From IMG/VR virus record IMGVR_UViG_3300005340_000081, positions 1 through 22,291 of that record: a stretch of DNA of 22,291 nucleotides; one strand, given 5' to 3'. This document shows, piece after piece, positions 7,684 to 15,718 of this stretch (the stretch's first letter is position 1; every line of letters begins with the position of its first letter). The notes below the pieces were generated by a model. The model worked only from the letters and a program-made list of their open reading frames with translations, was not told the origin of the DNA and searched no databases. The DNA is from a virus. The position numbers and the translations under genes are program-made.

Positions 7684-8304
7684 TCAGGTCACGACGACCC
7701 GGGCACTCGTCAGCCCGGCGACGACTGATTCGAGCCCGCGTTTGCGGTTTCGAAAGAACGTGCGCCGCGACATTCCGAGGCGTGCCACACGCCGATCAAT
7801 CTCCAGCTCGAGCGCCTTCCACATCGACCCTAGGAGCACGGCGCGGCTCGCTTCGGTGTCATCGCCGAGGTAAGTCAGCGGCCAGGCGAGCGCCTGTTCC
7901 ATCGCCGCGACCTCGTCGGCGGTTGCGCCTTTGTGCCGGTAGATCAGGCGGTTGCGCGCGCGTTTCAGATCGCGCTCGCCCTCACTCTGCGCCACGTAGT
8001 CGGCCCATTCGTGCGTGTAAGCCGGCATCGCGGTCCCGAACTCCTTGGGCGCGATCCGCATCGGCAGGCGGAACAGCACCTCGAAGCCCTGCACCAGCCG
8101 ACGGTCGACGTGCCCGATCGTCCATGTAGGAGGCGCCTCATAGCGCTGCGCGCGCTCCTGCCACCAGCCGGTGACGCGCTCGGGATCGACGTCGCGCTGG
8201 CCGTGGATGCGTCCGGGCGCTGTCCGGCTTTTGTCCGGAACCTGTCCAACCTGCATTTCGTGACCGTCTTTCGGCTCTTCGGACATATCGCCTTGTATTT
8301 CCAT
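7684..8304 (-). CDS. HTH-containing phage protein, possible late regulator
   Basis: 206 residues from the ATG at 8304. The body is helical; residues ~55-110 carry THEWADYVAQSEGERDLKRA and the C-terminus carries a helix-turn-helix-like segment, RRVARLGMSRRTFFRNRKRG (~170-190). This resembles the C-terminal 'G.SR.T..R...' element of phage proteins commonly placed just before the terminase genes (DUF6362-like); the assignment is tentative. It is the last gene of the early operon, and its 3' end abuts the control region ahead of terS, which would suit an activator of packaging genes. Its 5' part contains four phased TGTCCG-type repeats. Confidence 0.55.
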   Translation of the reverse strand: MEIQGDMSEEPKDGHEMQVGQVPDKSRTAPGRIHGQRDVDPERVTGWWQERAQRYEAPPTWTIGHVDRRLVQGFEVLFRLPMRIAPKEFGTAMPAYTHEWADYVAQSEGERDLKRARNRLIYRHKGATADEVAAMEQALAWPLTYLGDDTEASRAVLLGSMWKALELEIDRRVARLGMSRRTFFRNRKRGLESVVAGLTSARVVVT

Positions 8305-8437
8305 GGTTCTTTTCTTTGACGGCTACGGGCCGAACAGTTCGCCGATGTCAGCCTGTCCGCCGTCTGTCCGGTTTTGGTCCGGCATGCCGAGGGCGTCATC
8401 GAGCGCGCTGTCCGACCATTGTCCGCTCGTTGTCCGG
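8210..8437. repeat. Two clusters of 11-bp phased TGTCCG repeats: candidate replication origin
   Basis: Cluster A has units starting at 8210 (CGTCCGG), 8221 (TGTCCGG), 8232 (TGTCCGG) and 8243 (TGTCCAA), each exactly 11 bases apart. Cluster B has units at 8354, 8365, 8376 (GGTCCGG), 8409, 8420 and 8431, again on an 11-base grid with two degenerate units between. A reversed copy (CGGACA) lies at 8280-8285. Between the clusters, 8290-8322 is AT-rich. The clusters span the end of the primase-helicase gene and the start of the next gene. Eleven is not a multiple of three, so the pattern is not a by-product of a repeated peptide. Iterons around an AT-rich stretch within a replication gene recall phage origins such as lambda ori in O. 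Confidence 0.7.
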
Positions 8438-10740
8438 TCGCCGGCGTCCTTCGGCCGGGTCTCCGGAAAGCCGCGGATGACCTTGCCGGTCCATGACAGC
8501 CAAGGGCGCTTCCAGACGATGACGCCGGACGCGATCATGAAGCGCGAATAGCGGTCGAACCGCTTGCGGATGGCATCATCGCCAGGCGCTTCGCCTGCCT
8601 CGCCGCCGGCCACGCCCTCGACCTTGTAGGCCTCGCGCCAATCCCGGTAGTGCACCGCCATCCGATCGGCCGGCACACCGAGCGCCACCATCTCCTCGTT
8701 CGGCGCAACGGGTGCCTTGCGCAGGGCCGACAGCAGCGCGCGGAAGATCGGCTCCTCGGTCGGACGCAGCGCGAAGCCTTGAGCTGCCGTCTTCTGCTGC
8801 AGAGCCTCGTCGTCGCCGAGCGCGACGACCACGCACGACGTGATCGGGTGGCCGTCGGGCTCCTTGCCGACGTTCACGACCTGCAGCTTAGAGACCAGCG
8901 TACCGCCCTCCGGACCGTCCTTCATGTATTCGACCGTGGTGACGACGTTCTTGGCAGGGTCGCGCCGGATCGAGATCTGCGCATCCGCGGCGCCCGTCAG
9001 GCTGGAGTGCCCGCGCGGGCGCGCGCTCTCGATTCCACAGTGGTGGACGATCGGGACGACGCAATTGAACGCAGTGCGCACGGCGTCGGCCGCCTTCACA
9101 TAGTTGCCCATGTCCTGGTCGGAGGATTCCGAGCCCTGCAGCGAGCGGTTCAGGGTGTCGATCGCGACGACTGCCGGGTTGACGCCCGCAGGCAGCTGCG
9201 CGCGGATATCGGCGATGAGCTGCAGGTGATCGGCGACCAGGTTGAGACGCTGCGCGATCACGTAGAACGGCACCGGCTCGGTGCGGCTCTCGAGGAAGCG
9301 CTGACGGAACGCCTCGATACGATCGGAAAAACCTGTTTCGCCTTCCAGTATGACGTAGACGACGGCGCCCTGCTCGACCTTGCGGTTGCGATACGACCAG
9401 CCGAGCGCGACGTGGAACAGGAGATCGGACGTCCAGAACGATTTCCCGCACTTCGGCGGCCCCCAGATCACCACGACGCCGGTGAGTGGGATGATGCCGC
9501 GGACTAGGTAGCGCGGGCGCGACGAGACCTTCACGTCGCCGAAATGCACCATCTTGAAGCGCGGTGGCTTCGCCGGCGTTTGGCCGGCGGGACCGTCCCA
9601 TGGTGCATCATGCTGGTGCTCGGCGCGCGGCGCCCAATCCTTCGCGGCCGTCTCGGCGAGCCCATAGAGATCCTCAACGCTGTTGCCTTCCGCGAGCCAG
9701 TCGACGATATCGCCCTTGACCGGCAGGTCCGGCAGCTCGAGCACGCGCACACGCGCGGCGACGCCGTGCAGTTTGGAGGCGACGAGGTCCGCGTGATCTT
9801 TGCCGGGGAGCTTCTGCCGCCCGTCGGAATGGAAAAGAGGCTCGCCCTCGGCATTCGTCGACTGCGGGTCGTTATCCGGCAGGATGACGACGTCGGCGTC
9901 GCGAAAGTATTCGACGAGGTGATCGCCGAACTTGCCGGCGCCGCCCGAGTTGCACGTCGCCGGCGCGCCGGCCGCAATCAGTCGGTCGACCTTCTTTTCA
10001 CCTTCGACCACGAAGACCAGCCGCTCCATGGAGAGCGCCTCGAGCAGCTCCGCCACACGGTAGAGGCCATGCTGGATATTGGCGCCGACGAAGGTCCGGC
10101 GCTCCGTGTACCGCCACTCTTTGAAGTCGCGTTCGTCGAACCTTGACCAATCGGCACCCGGCCCGCGGCGCATGAATTCGTGCGGGTTGCCGTTCCGGTC
10201 GATGAGGTCGAGGCCCCAAATCCAAACGCCCTGCTCGTCAGGGGCAGGCCTGCGTTGGCCGAACGTCTTCCTGATCTTGCCGTCCTTATTGCGCTCCCAT
10301 CCGCCATCAGCGGTCCGAAACTGAAAGCGGACAACTTGGTAGGACAGCGCACCATCGGGCGCGACATAGTCGAAGGTGCCGACGATCTCGCGCTTTGGCT
10401 TCCGCTGCTTTCCCTCACCGTTCGGCCGGGAGGAATGGTCATCATGACCATTCCTGTGCACGCCATTCGACCGCGGCCGATCATCGACGTCGCAGCCGAG
10501 TTCCTTCAGGTAGGCGAAGGCCTCTGCACCCTCGAACCCCTTGCGTGCCTTGATGAAGTCGAGCACGCCGCCACCGCGGGACTCGGCGTGGTCGAACCAT
10601 GTGCCCTTCTCGATGTCGACCGAAAGCGAGCCGTTCGTCCCGTAACGCAGCTCCTTGCCGACCTTGGAGAGGCCCCAATTAGGATCGCCCAGAATAGCCT
10701 GGGCGACGACCGGCATATGCAGGGCGAGATCCGTTGCCAT
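8323..10740 (-). CDS. Bifunctional primase-helicase (TOPRIM + RepA-like P-loop ATPase)
   Basis: 805 residues from the ATG at 10740, with GGTGA just upstream; an ATG at 10755 is possible. Residues ~25-85 resemble the primase zinc-domain fold (SVDIEKGTWFDHAESRGGGV) but lack the usual Cys ligands. Residues ~120-165 carry the FDYVAPDGALSYQVVRFQFR element often found before phage TOPRIM domains. TOPRIM is at ~240-350 (LVFVVEGEKKVDRL, NSGGAGKFG, VVILPDNDPQ). A RecA/RepA-type ATPase is at ~405-650, with Walker A IWGPPKCGKSFWTSDL (~426-441), Walker B-like VVAIDTLNRSL, and VPIVHHCGIE with GHSSLTGAAD downstream. The C-terminus has a likely winged-helix and an acidic tail. It should prime and unwind phage DNA. 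Relative to common phage forms there is an insertion before TOPRIM (GLDLIDRNGNPHEFMRRG). The phased repeats lie in its last 120 bases. Confidence 0.85.
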   Translation of the reverse strand: MATDLALHMPVVAQAILGDPNWGLSKVGKELRYGTNGSLSVDIEKGTWFDHAESRGGGVLDFIKARKGFEGAEAFAYLKELGCDVDDRPRSNGVHRNGHDDHSSRPNGEGKQRKPKREIVGTFDYVAPDGALSYQVVRFQFRTADGGWERNKDGKIRKTFGQRRPAPDEQGVWIWGLDLIDRNGNPHEFMRRGPGADWSRFDERDFKEWRYTERRTFVGANIQHGLYRVAELLEALSMERLVFVVEGEKKVDRLIAAGAPATCNSGGAGKFGDHLVEYFRDADVVILPDNDPQSTNAEGEPLFHSDGRQKLPGKDHADLVASKLHGVAARVRVLELPDLPVKGDIVDWLAEGNSVEDLYGLAETAAKDWAPRAEHQHDAPWDGPAGQTPAKPPRFKMVHFGDVKVSSRPRYLVRGIIPLTGVVVIWGPPKCGKSFWTSDLLFHVALGWSYRNRKVEQGAVVYVILEGETGFSDRIEAFRQRFLESRTEPVPFYVIAQRLNLVADHLQLIADIRAQLPAGVNPAVVAIDTLNRSLQGSESSDQDMGNYVKAADAVRTAFNCVVPIVHHCGIESARPRGHSSLTGAADAQISIRRDPAKNVVTTVEYMKDGPEGGTLVSKLQVVNVGKEPDGHPITSCVVVALGDDEALQQKTAAQGFALRPTEEPIFRALLSALRKAPVAPNEEMVALGVPADRMAVHYRDWREAYKVEGVAGGEAGEAPGDDAIRKRFDRYSRFMIASGVIVWKRPWLSWTGKVIRGFPETRPKDAGDRTTSGQWSDSALDDALGMPDQNRTDGGQADIGELFGP

Positions 10741-10744
10741 GCGG

Positions 10745-11131
10745 TCACCGGTCATCAAGGACGGCGGCGGTCATCCCGTCGATCGCGATGTAACTCATCA
10801 ACTGCGCGACCAGCGCCCGCAGGCTCGTCCCCCGCTCCGTCGCCTCGACGGTCAGCTTCTGCGCGACCTCGGCGCTCACGATGATGCCGTTGAGCTCGAT
10901 GGTCCGCGCCTTGGTGGCATCGATGCGCGCCACGGCGCGATCATCTGCAGCTGGCCGCTCGACCTCCCGATCGGGCCCGAACCGCAGTGAGATGCCCATC
11001 TCCGAGGCGAGGTTGCGCAGCGTCCCGCGCGAGATGCCGAGCCGCCGCGAGATGTCGCGCGACGGCATCGTTCCGGCCAGGCGCCTGATCTCGGCGCGCG
11101 TCGTGCGGGTGTTTTCGAAGGGGGCGTTCAA
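10745..11131 (-). CDS. HTH DNA-binding protein
   Basis: 128 residues from the ATG at 11131, overlapping the upstream stop as ATGA. The N-terminal half has a helix-turn-helix: TRAEIRRLAGTMPSRDISRR followed by LGISRGTLRNLASEMGISLR (~residues 10-50). After an Arg/Asp linker, residues 80-118 (IIVSAEVAQKLTVEATERGT, SLRALVAQLMSYIAIDGM) resemble a ribbon-helix-helix-like or oligomerisation element. The layout (DNA-binding domain plus dimer domain, directly ahead of the primase-helicase) suits a regulator or an origin-binding protein. It is one candidate for binding the phased repeats. Confidence 0.6.
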   Translation of the reverse strand: MNAPFENTRTTRAEIRRLAGTMPSRDISRRLGISRGTLRNLASEMGISLRFGPDREVERPAADDRAVARIDATKARTIELNGIIVSAEVAQKLTVEATERGTSLRALVAQLMSYIAIDGMTAAVLDDR

Positions 11132-12030
11132 ATACGCGCCTCCGGCATCCCGTTGTGCTCGACGCCATCGAGGAGACGGCCGGCGGCCTTCTTACCGACC
11201 CTATAAAGGTCTGGCTCATCGTCGACGTGGCCCTCGCAGTTCGCGAGGTTCTCGCGGCTCATGAGCCAGCGATCGTCAAACCATGCGGCGGTTTCGACGG
11301 TGCCGCGCTGGCGCTCGACGTTCTCGCCGGACGTCCACTCACCCCACTGCTTGAATAAGAACGGCACGCGAGCCTCGGCGCATTGGTCACGGAGCGAGCT
11401 CGCCCATTCCGGATGCATCGGCCTGGCATGGGGTCCGGATTCACCGCCGACGATGACCCAACCAGGCAGCTTCCCGCGTGCATTGATCGGACCAAGCATC
11501 GGCTCCACGCTGGCGAACGTGAAGCGTGCACCAAGGACGAGACGCGCATGCTCAAGTTTCGGCAGATCCCGGTCCCATTCCTCCTGATTGATCATGGTCG
11601 CGCCAAGCGCGGTGTTCTCGGGCAGCGCAGCGCCTGACCCGTGGCGCGCGACGTCGCACATCTTCTCGGCATTGCCGATGCGTTTCGACAGGAGCAGGTA
11701 GAGCAAATTCGGCGTTTTGCGCATCACGTCGAACGCCTGCGTGCGCCAAAGCGGGTCGACTTCGTTATCCCATATGTCGCCGAGCGAGAGGCAGAACACG
11801 GTCGCGATCTTGCCGGCCGCAGTAGCTGCGCGGTCCCATTTGAACGGCTCGCGCCAATTTCCCGGCGAGGTCCGGACGCGATCCTGGCCGGCGCCCCACT
11901 TCGCCTTGCCGTAGCGCTCATCCATCATCACGCGGGCGTAACAGTGATCGCACGCTGGGCTGACCTCCGTGCATCCGAACCACGGATTCCAAGTATGGTC
12001 GCACCACTCAATCTTCGTGTTCTCAGCCAT
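11128..12030 (-). CDS. Phage Gp37/Gp68 (DUF5131) three-Cys-motif protein
   Basis: 300 residues from the ATG at 12030, overlapping the upstream ATPase stop. The N-terminus MAENTKIEWCDHTWNPWFGC, followed by C27 and C30 in SPACDHCYA, is the DUF5131 signature: a C-x6-C-x2-C motif (C20, C27, C30) inside a TIM-barrel-like chain that resembles radical SAM enzymes. Further hallmarks are SLGDIWDNEVDPLWR (~100), LLYLLLSKRI (~125), FASVEPMLGPI (~195), VIVGGESGPHARPMHPEW (~215) and FLFKQWGEW (~250). The protein is expected to carry an iron-sulfur cluster. The family is widespread in phages, and its substrate is not known to me. The 'three-Cys-motif partner' TcmP that often accompanies such proteins is not seen here. 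Confidence 0.85.
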   Translation of the reverse strand: MAENTKIEWCDHTWNPWFGCTEVSPACDHCYARVMMDERYGKAKWGAGQDRVRTSPGNWREPFKWDRAATAAGKIATVFCLSLGDIWDNEVDPLWRTQAFDVMRKTPNLLYLLLSKRIGNAEKMCDVARHGSGAALPENTALGATMINQEEWDRDLPKLEHARLVLGARFTFASVEPMLGPINARGKLPGWVIVGGESGPHARPMHPEWASSLRDQCAEARVPFLFKQWGEWTSGENVERQRGTVETAAWFDDRWLMSRENLANCEGHVDDEPDLYRVGKKAAGRLLDGVEHNGMPEARI

Positions 12031-14027
12031 TGGCGACCTTTTCCATGATCATCTCTCGCGCGCGCGTCTTCCCGACCTGACGCTCGTAACTGCGGTAGAG
12101 CTTCTGCATCTTCGGCGGGCACTTGAACTTCGCGGCCGTGAGTCGCGCCGCGACCTTCTCAGTCTTTGTTGCCTCCGCCTTCAGTTGCGCGCCGGCGCCG
12201 CGGCCGCGGAAGTCGAGCCGCAGCTGACCGGCCATGCGGGCGACGGTCGCGTAGGTTCGGCCCGGCAGCAGCCTCGGCACGTCGACAAGCTTGATGCCGT
12301 CCGAATGCGCCTTGCGGAGCAGCGCTTTCTCGTCGTCTGTCCACTTGAGCCGCTGCTTGAGGCCTAGCTGACTTGCCATATTCAGGATTGCGCCGCGTGA
12401 GCGATCCATGACCTGCATGATCTCGGCAGCCGACTTGTTCGCGTTGTACATCTCGGTCAGCATCGCGATGTCCGCGTCGGTCCACGGGATCGCGCTGTTG
12501 CGGCTAATGCCGTTGCGCTGTGCGAACTTGGTGATCCCCGTCACGCCGCGTTCGAAGCCGGCGGCCTTGAGCATCATGATGATCTCGCGCGTGGACTTGC
12601 CGTCGTTCAGGCCGGCGAGCGCAATGTCCGATTCTTCCTTGGTCCAGTAATTGACGCGATCGCGCGTGATGCCGAGAGCGATGGCGCGCATTTGCACGGC
12701 AACGCGGCCGCGGCTAAAGCCGTTCTCCGCAAGTCGCGTGACGATATCGATGATTTTGGTCTCCTTGAGATACTCGTCGCGAATGATCGCGTCCTCTTCA
12801 TCGGACCAGCCGATGATCGCTCGAGCGCTGATGAGGCCGAGCGCGTGCGCCCGGGTCGAGATGCCGCTCGTTGATACAATGCAGTTGGCGGCCGCGAGCT
12901 GGTTGGCGATCTCGGCGAGCGGCGTACCGGCGCCGTAGCCGTCGCGGATGATCTTGTCGTGATCGGGCGACCAGTCGATTCCGCGCTTGCCGCGTCGCGA
13001 CATGTGGTTGGCGACTACGGACGGCATGGCCTCCGGGTCCGCGTCCGGAACCGCCTTGAGCAGATCGAGCGCCGCCGCGGAGCTGATAGCGGGCGGCGCG
13101 GTGATCGCCGGCGCCTCACCCTTGTGCCGGGACTCTGCGGCAGCCGCCCGGAAGCGCACACGTGTCGGACCGGCGAGCGCGGGCCCGAGGCACAGGAACT
13201 CGCCCGCCGCGAGCGAGCGGAGCGCCCGAGCAGCGCCCGCGGTGAAGCCGATCAGTGCGCCGGCGCGCTCCTGGTCGATATCGAAGACGGTGCAGCCGAC
13301 TATGACGTTCGTCACCTTCGCGACCACCGCCTTCGACGTCTCGGCCAGCCGTTGCGTCGCGATGACGCCGGCGACGCCTCGCTTGCGGCCGCGCCCCATC
13401 ATGTCGGCAAGCGCCATGATCGCGCGCTTGCGCGTCTCGGGCTCGACATCGCCCGGATCGTAGTGAGGTGCCAGCGTCTGCGCCTCGTCGACGTGCACCA
13501 GTAGCGGGTGGCGGTGTTCTACAGGGCAGTCGATCAGGCCGGACGCCAGGTCGGCAACGATCGCCATTCTCTGCTCAGCTGTCGCGTCGGAGAGATCCAG
13601 CACAGCGCTATACCGATGCTCGCGCAGATGGAACGCGAACGAGCGCCCCCCCCACCCGCAGCACATCGGCCGCGCTGAGTACGGCCACGTCGAGCTTCTC
13701 TGCGAGCGTCGAGAATTCTCCGTCAGGGTCGACGAGCAGCTGCTGCACACGCCCGAAAGCCTGCTCGAAGATGCGTCGCAGCAGCATGGACTTGCCGGCG
13801 CCGCTATTACCCTGGATCAGCAGGCGCCCCTCGATCAGTTTGCCGAGGTCAAGACCGACGACGTCGCCGTTGCTCATCCGGCCGAGTTCGATCGACCCTT
13901 CGCGGAGCGGGCGCGGCTCCGGCGGTGCCGGAGGTTTCGGCGCCCCTGATCCTCCAACCCCAAACCCGCGGCCTGCGAGGGCGGCACCGAATGCGCTGTC
14001 CGCCGCGCGCGCGTCCATAACGGTCAT
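12023..14027 (-). CDS. HerA-type P-loop ATPase fused to five GcrA/Myb-like HTH repeats; frameshifted
   Basis: Two overlapping frames form one gene. It starts at the ATG at 14027 (ATGA overlap with the gene upstream) and would give 667 residues if one G of a G8 run (13646-13653) were removed. Residues ~40-290 are a HerA/FtsK-like hexameric translocase: Walker A LLIQGNSGAGKSMLL (~69-83), Walker B PLLVHVDEAQTLAP (~174-187), then GRGRKRGVAGVIATQRLAE and VGCTVFDIDQERAGALIGF, as in HerA. A Pro/Ala linker leads to five DNA-binding repeats at W352, W407, W461, W515 and W562, spaced 47-55 residues and each built as W[ST]..(D/E)...I......EI...L......A..LG[IL]. A basic tail follows. It probably moves or remodels DNA at bound sites. 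No NurA nuclease is next to it. The broken frame may be a sequencing error, a real mutation or recoding. Confidence 0.75.
12215..12985 (-). other. Region encoding five tandem GcrA/Myb-like HTH repeats
   Basis: The five units begin DWSPDHDKIIRDGY, GWSDEEDAIIRDEY, YWTKEESDIALAGL, PWTDADIAMLTEMY and KWTDDEKALLRKAH. They share a leading Trp, an acidic cluster and a middle EI/DI/DV, and most end in an A..LG[LI] helix. The fourth and fifth are shorter and look closest to the N-terminal HTH of the GcrA protein encoded at 16793-17371 (DWTSDAVERLKALWADGLSA). They have diverged in sequence, so the duplication is not recent. Confidence 0.75.
13646..13653 (-). other. Frameshift point in the HerA-type ATPase (run of eight G on the coding strand)
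   Basis: The N-terminal frame reads ...ADVLRVGG then loses similarity (ALVRVPSARASV, stop at 13608). The frame one base further on takes over with GGRSFAFHLREHRYSAVLDL, which continues the ATPase fold. The switch falls exactly in the homopolymer, needing a net +1 shift (one G fewer, or two more). It is the only clear frame break seen in the window. Confidence 0.8.
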
Positions 14028-14287
14028 GCCGACATCCCCTTCTCTCGCCACTTCTTGAAATCCGCCGCGCGCTCGCGGATGTAGGCAATCGCCATCTCGG
14101 CGTTCGCCACGACGGTCGCCGCCGCCTCGAGCACGTCCGCCCGACGGTTGAGACCCGACGCCGTCCCGGGCGAGCAGGCGCCTGCCCAGATGCGGGCATG
14201 GTCGGCTTCGGCTTGAACGGTCAGGATCATGTCGCGGACTTCGATTCTTGGTTTCTTGGCCGCTGGCGCTGAGGGTTCGTCGGTCAT
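14024..14287 (-). CDS. Small helical protein upstream of HerA-type ATPase
   Basis: 87 residues from the ATG at 14287 (ATGA overlap upstream); its own stop overlaps the ATPase start in the same way. The N-terminus is a short disordered stretch (MTDEPSAPAAKKPRIEVRDM). The rest is helical: ILTVQAEADHARIWAGACSP and LEAAATVVANAEMAIAYIRE, ending in a basic RAADFKKWREKG. No family recognised. Coupling to both neighbours suggests it works with the ParB-like protein or the ATPase. Confidence 0.65.
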   Translation of the reverse strand: MTDEPSAPAAKKPRIEVRDMILTVQAEADHARIWAGACSPGTASGLNRRADVLEAAATVVANAEMAIAYIRERAADFKKWREKGMSA

Positions 14288-15138
14288 GCGGTGGCGGCCT
14301 CGAGCCGCTCCTCGAGATGCGCGCCGAGCGACTCGATCAACGCAGCCGTTACCGTCATGCCGTCGTCGAATGAGCGCTTGCATGCGGCGTGGTACTCGGC
14401 GCCGAAGTTGAAGGTTTGCATCGCGCGGATCAGCGCCTTCTCATCAGCGAGCCAGTCCGGCTCGGCGTCGAGAGTCACGCACAGAGCATCGATGATCGCG
14501 GCGCGCAGACAGCCAGGGTTGCCGAGCTTGGTGCGCGTAATGCAACGCAGCGCGGAACGCAGGACGTCTGGCCCGTAACGCTTGAGCATCAGCGGCAGCT
14601 TGCCAGCGGCGAGCGTCTCGCCCGGCTTCATTAGCTTTGCGGGAACCGGATAGTGACAGATCGCGACATCTGCATCCGCCAGGACCGCCGCGAGCGCCAC
14701 AGCATCCTCATCACCGGCCACGACTCGGGCGTGATAGAGGTGCATCGCGGTGAGCGCGGTGACATTGCTGTTGATCGCCGCAAACGCCGTCGCCTGCATG
14801 GCGGTGCTGATCTTCACGATCTGGCAGGGCACGTCCTTGATCCCGCGCAACGCGGCTCCGGTCGTACGGTGCTGGCCGTCGATGACGAGGAAGATACCCT
14901 GGTCTGCTTCAGACACGATCACAGTGCCGAACTTGGCCCACGAGAATTCACGCGCGATCTTGCGGACGTTTTTGGCACCGCGCTCAAAGATCTCGCGCTG
15001 ATAACTCGGATCGATGCGCAACAGGTCGATCGCGATCCAGCGCAGCTGCGGCTTCTCGCCGGGGTCGTAATGCGGCGGCAGCGGCTGGCGCGGATCGGCG
15101 AACTGGCGGCCGTCGATTCTTCGTAGCGTGAGCGTCAT
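14284..15138 (-). CDS. ParB-like (ParB/sulfiredoxin fold) protein, DUF6551 type
   Basis: 284 residues from the ATG at 15138, which overlaps the upstream stop as ATGA. Residues ~30-110 match the ParB/Srx N-terminal fold: LRWIAIDLLRIDPSYQREIF, a middle strand GTVIVSEADQGIFLV, and the signature IDGQHRTTGAALRGI (~86-100). In this fold the GxxR/DGQHR region binds nucleotide in ParB relatives and acts in some nuclease-like members. Residues ~110-284 are helical (FAAINSNVTALTAMHLYHAR and onward), as in the DUF6551-like proteins of GC-rich phages. Those proteins usually lack the HTH of true partition ParB, and no ParA is present, so a partition role is unlikely; a DNA-processing or regulatory role is more plausible. 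Confidence 0.72.
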   Translation of the reverse strand: MTLTLRRIDGRQFADPRQPLPPHYDPGEKPQLRWIAIDLLRIDPSYQREIFERGAKNVRKIAREFSWAKFGTVIVSEADQGIFLVIDGQHRTTGAALRGIKDVPCQIVKISTAMQATAFAAINSNVTALTAMHLYHARVVAGDEDAVALAAVLADADVAICHYPVPAKLMKPGETLAAGKLPLMLKRYGPDVLRSALRCITRTKLGNPGCLRAAIIDALCVTLDAEPDWLADEKALIRAMQTFNFGAEYHAACKRSFDDGMTVTAALIESLGAHLEERLEAATA

Positions 15139-15500
15139 CGCCGCCCTCCCCGCACGAAATCGATCAGCCGCTTCCAGACCTTCCGCTCGGCCTCCGGCTC
15201 GACGCGGGCGAGCAGCGCGCGGACCTCGGCCTCGTGTGGGATGAGGCGCTTCATTAGGTCGTGCGCCTCCGCGATCCGTTCGCGATGCTTGCGCTCGGCG
15301 CCGAGAATGTGCGCGGTCGCGTCTTCGGAAAGCCCGATGCGCGCGGCCAGGACGTCGATCTTTAAGGCGCGATCGGACGCGAAGGCGGACTGGACCCAGG
15401 TCGCCCAGGCAAGTTCGGCGAAGTCGACGTCGCCGGTGGACTTTGCCACGGACAATTCGACGGCCAATTCTGCAAATGAGCTGGTCGAGAGGTCGGTCAT
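15135..15500 (-). CDS. Hypothetical helical protein
   Basis: 121 residues from the ATG at 15500, ATGA-coupled on both sides. Mostly helical. A short segment, LAARIGLSEDATAHILGAER (~51-70), has helix-turn-helix spacing. The C-terminus is basic (KVWKRLIDFVRGGRR). No family recognised. It sits directly before the ParB-like gene in the operon. Confidence 0.6.
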   Translation of the reverse strand: MTDLSTSSFAELAVELSVAKSTGDVDFAELAWATWVQSAFASDRALKIDVLAARIGLSEDATAHILGAERKHRERIAEAHDLMKRLIPHEAEVRALLARVEPEAERKVWKRLIDFVRGGRR

Positions 15501-15718
15501 GCCGCGATCCTTCCGATGGCGACTTCCGTTTCGTGCGACTGCTCGACGGCATCCTCACCGGGCCCTCCGGGGCCGTCGTCACCGACGAGTGCGACAAGCT
15601 CGATGCTTTCCAAGCGGTCCTCGATCCGATCCAGCTTGCGGTAGATCACGATCGGCCAGATCAGGATCGACGCGATCAGCGAGATGAGCAGGAAAGCGAC
15701 GAAGAATTCGGTGATCAT
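15497..15718 (-). CDS. Small single-span membrane protein
   Basis: 73 residues from the ATG at 15718, coupled to the resolvase stop as ATGA. A hydrophobic segment fills residues 4-26 (EFFVAFLLISLIASILIWPI). It is followed by a short charged helix, RKLDRIEDRLESIE, like the start of a coiled coil, and an acidic Gly/Pro tail. The topology resembles small phage inner-membrane proteins of the early region. Function unknown. Confidence 0.62.
   Translation of the reverse strand: MITEFFVAFLLISLIASILIWPIVIYRKLDRIEDRLESIELVALVGDDGPGGPGEDAVEQSHETEVAIGRIAA

Follow-up and report, generated by a model that had tools for sequence, protein, structure and literature searches.

The C-terminal domain of the SaPI Rep helicase recognises an origin composed of multiple short iterons that lies directly downstream of its own gene, according to the portion of PMC7581432 that cites Ubeda 2007, and the C-terminal domain of the SCCmec protein Cch2 binds AAGTG direct repeats beside the helicase gene (PMC7581432). 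In satellite phage P4, primase, helicase and origin-binding part are fused in the alpha protein, and the iterons are short (see also PMC4234260). The primase-helicase ORF904 of pRN1 carries a C-terminal winged helix and has its origin just downstream of its gene, and in RSF1010 it is RepC, a protein of its own, that reads the iterons (both PMC4234260). In geminiviruses, short iterons vary between close relatives and match the cognate Rep (PMC12548392).

We analysed a window of 22,291 bp, which is the entire virus record and not a cut from a longer one, and in which a short-iteron array adjoins the gene for a RepA-like primase-helicase, as at the SaPI Rep origin. Unlike SaPI Rep, the family of the window protein has a helicase of a different superfamily, whose RecA fold is of the AAA_25/RepA-like kind, joined to a TOPRIM-type primase; it occurs in tailed phages and prophages, and displays a residue-to-base code that is visible family-wide. 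SCCmec Cch2 differs in its D5-type helicase, separate primase, three iterons and 3'-5' polarity, pRN1 ORF904 in its stem-loop origin without iterons, archaeal-type primase and SF3 helicase, and geminivirus Rep in being an unrelated protein of rolling-circle replication. The P4 alpha protein, an SF3-type helicase with an ori/crr arrangement, resembles the window protein in that a single chain holds the primase, the helicase and, towards the C-terminus, an origin-binding part, although the binding part is predicted in the latter. The window helicase domain is RepA-like both by sequence and by the model of a relative (L051), whereas recognition (predicted), helicase and primase are fused in the window protein, in contrast to the RepA/RepB/RepC system of RSF1010 with its separate RepC. 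By analogy, the window helicase may work as at the SaPI Rep, SCCmec Cch2 and P4 alpha origins; because the helicase cores of SaPI Rep, SCCmec Cch2 and pRN1 are of other types, we do not claim membership in those families. In the open-access literature we found no paper on such arrays for RepA-like phage helicases.

A phased hexamer array at the end of the helicase gene

The earlier note had described TGTCCG-type units recurring at exact 11-base steps. Exact copies lie on the + strand at 8221, 8232, 8354, 8365, 8409, 8420 and 8431 (CGGACA on the coding strand of the helicase gene), and a reversed copy is at 8280, as had been noted. The repeats themselves also stand, with two corrections: three of the listed units carry one mismatch—8210 (CGTCCG), 8243 (TGTCCA) and 8376 (GGTCCG)—and the two clusters do not share a register, with positions modulo 11 of 4 in cluster A and 5 in cluster B, i.e., a phase difference of one base. 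Units 8387 and 8398 are degenerate.

The array has five identical hexamers in one 11-bp phase, a number that no 6-mer at any lag of 7-23 attained when the whole window was dinucleotide-shuffled 200 times (best, 4). The eight hexamer copies within ±200 bp of the helicase stop were likewise equalled in 0/200 shuffles. These shuffles, together with those of the relatives described below, rule out chance as the origin of the array. A protein-coding cause is rejected as well, in line with the earlier argument that 11 is no multiple of three and that the run crosses two genes; in relatives, moreover, the array is partly intergenic. The phased TGTCCG/CGGACA repeats at 8210-8436 are therefore confirmed as real and far beyond chance.

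With the helicase stop at 8323-8325, cluster B falls within the last codons of the helicase gene and cluster A within the opening codons of the gene that follows. The AT-rich stretch that had been noticed between the clusters was borne out: it is mostly the intergenic region between these two genes, its AT content exceeds the 35% found across the window, and 208 of 22,255 equal-size windows are as AT-rich.

Table 1. Coordinates of the array, the primase-helicase gene and their parts within the window
Feature	Position	Strand	Basis or remark
Primase-helicase of 811 aa, RepA-like, with a TOPRIM-type primase part, an AAA_25 helicase and a predicted winged helix at the C-terminus; proposed as the iteron-binding initiator	8323..10758	-	Pfam, PHROG, profile
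AAA_25 (RecA/RepA-fold) helicase domain, residues 398-575	9034..9567	-	Pfam AAA_25; model of relative L051
C-terminal predicted winged-helix domain, residues 664-756	8491..8769	-	AlphaFold2 model m585499a09084
Predicted recognition helix, residues 727-744	8527..8580	-	AlphaFold2 model; carries covarying 732, 736, 737
Codon of K732, residue from which the iteron base 5' of ACA is predicted (K -> G)	8563..8565	-	Covariation
Iteron cluster B: 8354, 8365, 8376 (1 mismatch), 8409, 8420, 8431	8354..8436	-	Inside end of helicase gene
AT-rich gap between clusters, candidate unwinding region	8287..8322	.	58% AT
Inverted iteron copy, CGGACA on + strand	8280..8285	+	
Iteron cluster A: 8210 (1 mismatch), 8221, 8232, 8243 (1 mismatch)	8210..8248	-	Inside start of next gene
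Next gene downstream, phrog_6836, function not assigned by family	7684..8304	-	Overlaps cluster A; not a general binder

The helicase matches Pfam AAA_25 (1.9e-30) and primase/helicase families of PHROG, and contains an AAA_25/RecA-fold core with Walker A (Pfam and profile, as well as the model of L051). Among PDB sequences its profile hit RSF1010 RepA (1g8y, E 6e-8), and the core of the L051 model, which spans helicase and C-terminus, matches RSF1010 RepA (1nlf/1g8y) at E ~9e-11. Pfam and structure comparisons gave the AAA_25/RecA fold, with no D5 match and neither an SF3/D5 nor an MCM-like AAA+ core. An AlphaFold2 model (m585499a09084) of the C-terminal 160 residues predicts a helix, strand, helix, helix and two-strand wing, with pLDDT mostly above 90 there, and puts residues 732, 736 and 737 on the predicted recognition helix, the first two of them separated by one turn. 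A fold search with the lone C-terminal domain put winged-helix proteins (E2F-DP, ORC, CRP) at the top, with weak scores (best E 0.09). Among the scanned proteins of the window, whose contig is a fragment, there was no separate Rep initiator with twin winged helices of the iteron plasmid type (RepA/RepE/RctB) and no match to an O-like initiator of the lambda type; the iterons instead sit at the end of a primase-helicase gene.

Elsewhere in the window, overlapping frames at 12023-13750 and 13608-14051 (both - strand) each match a different part of phrog_7035, a HerA/VirB4-like ATPase family, so that this ATPase gene looks frameshift-split; its downstream part carries GcrA-like HTH repeats. The - strand also encodes a DUF5131/phrog_2045 protein (11128-12030; strong match, no assigned function) and a ParB-like/DGQHR-domain protein (14284-15597).

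Arrays across relatives of the helicase

Helicase relatives were taken from virus contigs and genomes, giving 76 non-redundant loci whose named hosts include Bradyrhizobium, Beijerinckia, Roseiarcus and Lichenibacterium, and which take in Rhizobium phage 16-3. A hexamer array lies within 200 bp of the helicase stop in 43 of the 76 loci (equalled in 0/200 shuffles), and the tile at the stop is the best of its locus in 42/76. More than 25 different hexamers are used, with CGGACA, GGGACA, GTCACA, GTTACA, GCAACA, TATACA and others found in different phages, and spacings of 9-12 bp—roughly one helical turn—account for 128 of the 254 same-strand distances up to 40 bp. One relative, L005, whose terminase is 55% identical to that of the window, carries GGGACA repeated every 22 bp where the window has its array. 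The helicase-end array is thus a family trait, not peculiar to the window phage, and its recurrence at the same place in many relatives at about one-turn spacing lends good support to the original reading of the repeats as iterons of a phage origin.

The earlier note had counted the absence of the array from close relatives with an intact primase-helicase as evidence against that reading. We found this in a minority of relatives only: about 30 of 76 lack a clear array at the helicase stop, and while some have none in the stretch examined, several carry one elsewhere. Dense displaced arrays were seen, relative to the helicase stop, at +500 to +750 in L037 (GTTGGCA x14), at +1842 in L098 and L104 (TCCGCA x9-10) and at +906 in L086 (GCTTCA x11). 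Six relatives (L010, L011, L014, L015, L018 and L024) have a strong palindrome of the CCCCCTTA...AAGGGGG type just after the helicase stop; this hairpin, which is not in the window, follows the direct repeats and has inverted copies of the iteron on either side. GC skew was uninformative in the window as well as in phage 16-3.

The surroundings of the array in the window also bear on a different function. Its TerS and TerL genes follow at 7346-4988, and L005 likewise has TerL downstream of its array, as might be expected if the small terminase encoded just downstream bound the repeats as its packaging site (pac/cos). In phage 16-3, however, the array beside p101—a scan of ~59 kb turned up no other—occupies 56.25-56.55 kb, whereas cos lies at 60,195, where the genome ends, and the start of terS is at 46, positions that exclude a packaging site there. 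Given also that a TerS homologue occurs at 1/45 and TerL at 4/45 array loci (with short flanks), and that packaging leaves the helicase code unexplained, we consider this function extremely improbable.

Covariation of a helicase residue with the iteron sequence

We compared the iteron motif with every column of the helicase alignment. Raw Mantel correlations over windows failed to separate the helicase core from the C-terminus, so we relied on single-column and held-out tests. The top four of 332 columns in the top-column test were all C-terminal—732, 736, 708 and 679—with family-wise p of 0.005-0.04; restricted to distant pairs, the column test was not significant. For the base 5' of ACA, the excess mutual information is 0.99 bits at column 732 and 0.44 at the next best of 334 columns, and columns 732 and 735 are the most informative for the base one further 5'.

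Among relatives with R736 and an array ending in ACA, the residue at 732 goes with the base before ACA as follows: K/R with G (18/18), E with C (4/4), T with T (6/6) and V/I/M with A (7/8), such that 35/36 representatives obey the code; the window phage has K and G. Relatives with Q at this position are mixed (A, C or G), and L020, L202 and L221 are exceptions. Since the residue classes were drawn up after the first data had been viewed, the code was tested on newly fetched loci, where 23 of 25 fit (the misses being L202 and L221; 0/100000 shuffles were as good), as did 9/11 of those less than 70% identical to any earlier locus. On a tree of the helicase core (AAA-only), changes to or from K/R coincide with changes to or from G in 8-10 independent pairs, with none in the opposite direction (p ~0.004). 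A subfamily comprising L138, L149, L176, L190 and relatives has a helix without R736 (NAIYEAKKRL type) and, in place of NNNACA, repeats TCGGAA or TCAGAA in its arrays, and may represent a second recognition mode.

Near-identical helicase cores carry different residue/base pairs, suggesting that winged helix and array are exchanged as a unit. Very close sisters that differ in both residue and base would also look like this if the adjacent helicase 3' end and array were simply swapped together as a cassette, their agreement then reflecting shared descent without any contact. L170 (K, AGACA) and L140 (T, TTACA) are close sisters whose code letters differ. Shared descent would lift all C-terminal columns alike and hence does not single out 732, yet 732 alone is outstanding among these equally linked columns. 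Loci less than 35% identical in the helicase domain still obey the code, with the same class and the same base in 106/109 pairs, and it also fits two arrays displaced upstream, by 4.8 kb in L057 (K at 732, CGGGACA) and by 1.4 kb in L040 (K at 732, GCGACA). We therefore regard a linkage artefact as highly unlikely.

The covariation points to a binder different from those first proposed. Candidates in the earlier note were HTH proteins of the window, and these are missing from nearly all array loci: homologues of the 10745 protein and of the HTH ATPase occur at 0/45 and the 7684 protein at 2/45, while the helicase is the sole gene common to array-bearing loci among the genes tested. Separate origin initiators are common in lambdoid phages, and the window does encode several HTH proteins, so one could envisage an origin bound by another initiator (one of the HTH proteins, 7684 or 10745, the HTH ATPase, or a protein of the host) that simply recruits the helicase. 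Against this stand the scarcity of the candidate genes and a base identity that follows one helicase residue; a shared host protein, for its part, would not account for more than 25 different hexamers. Such an initiator seems very unlikely, and the primase-helicase itself, probably acting through its predicted C-terminal domain, is the best-supported binder on sequence and model evidence.

A candidate origin proposed to be read by its own helicase

Phased sites on both sides of an AT-rich gap, marked by their own primase-helicase, fit best with a self-recognised origin, and we consider it highly probable that the array is the phage replication origin, read by the product of the helicase gene in which it lies. 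The arrays with their conserved position and spacing, the covariation and the predicted domain are computed results, from which we infer the physical steps of binding, melting and loading, as well as origin function. Copies of the primase-helicase would use the C-terminal winged helix to bind the CGGACA iterons, each turn of the DNA helix offering one unit, and would assemble on both sides of the AT-rich gap, which would then melt and allow the RepA-like ring to load and the attached primase to start synthesis. Residue 732 of the recognition helix would contact the base 5' of ACA, and residue 735 would assist in reading the preceding base. If these residues read the iterons, joint changes of helix and iterons could let phages drift to new, mutually exclusive origin addresses.

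The array overlaps the helicase 3' end and, in the window, the start of the next gene, an arrangement that could also suit a helicase binding mainly for self-repression, copy-number control or exclusion of rivals, with the origin elsewhere. This appears unlikely, as the array is at the gene's end and not at its promoter, displaced arrays lie 1.4-4.8 kb away, and the SaPI and SCCmec precedents are origins (PMC7581432).

Returning to a self-recognised origin, we think it reasonably likely that a very large family of phage primase-helicases addresses its own origins through a near one-residue-one-base code in the C-terminal winged helix, with helix and array exchanged together, keeping replication identities separate within one cell. 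Few phages have mapped origins. If true, origins of many uncultured and prophage genomes would become locatable and their specificity predictable from one protein residue, and changes in initiator specificity could be studied on the series of naturally matched protein-DNA pairs that the family provides. It would also extend the design of a helicase recognising its own origin from the D5-type to the RepA-like superfamily, and would suggest why the origin of one phage is not fired by another resident in the same cell.
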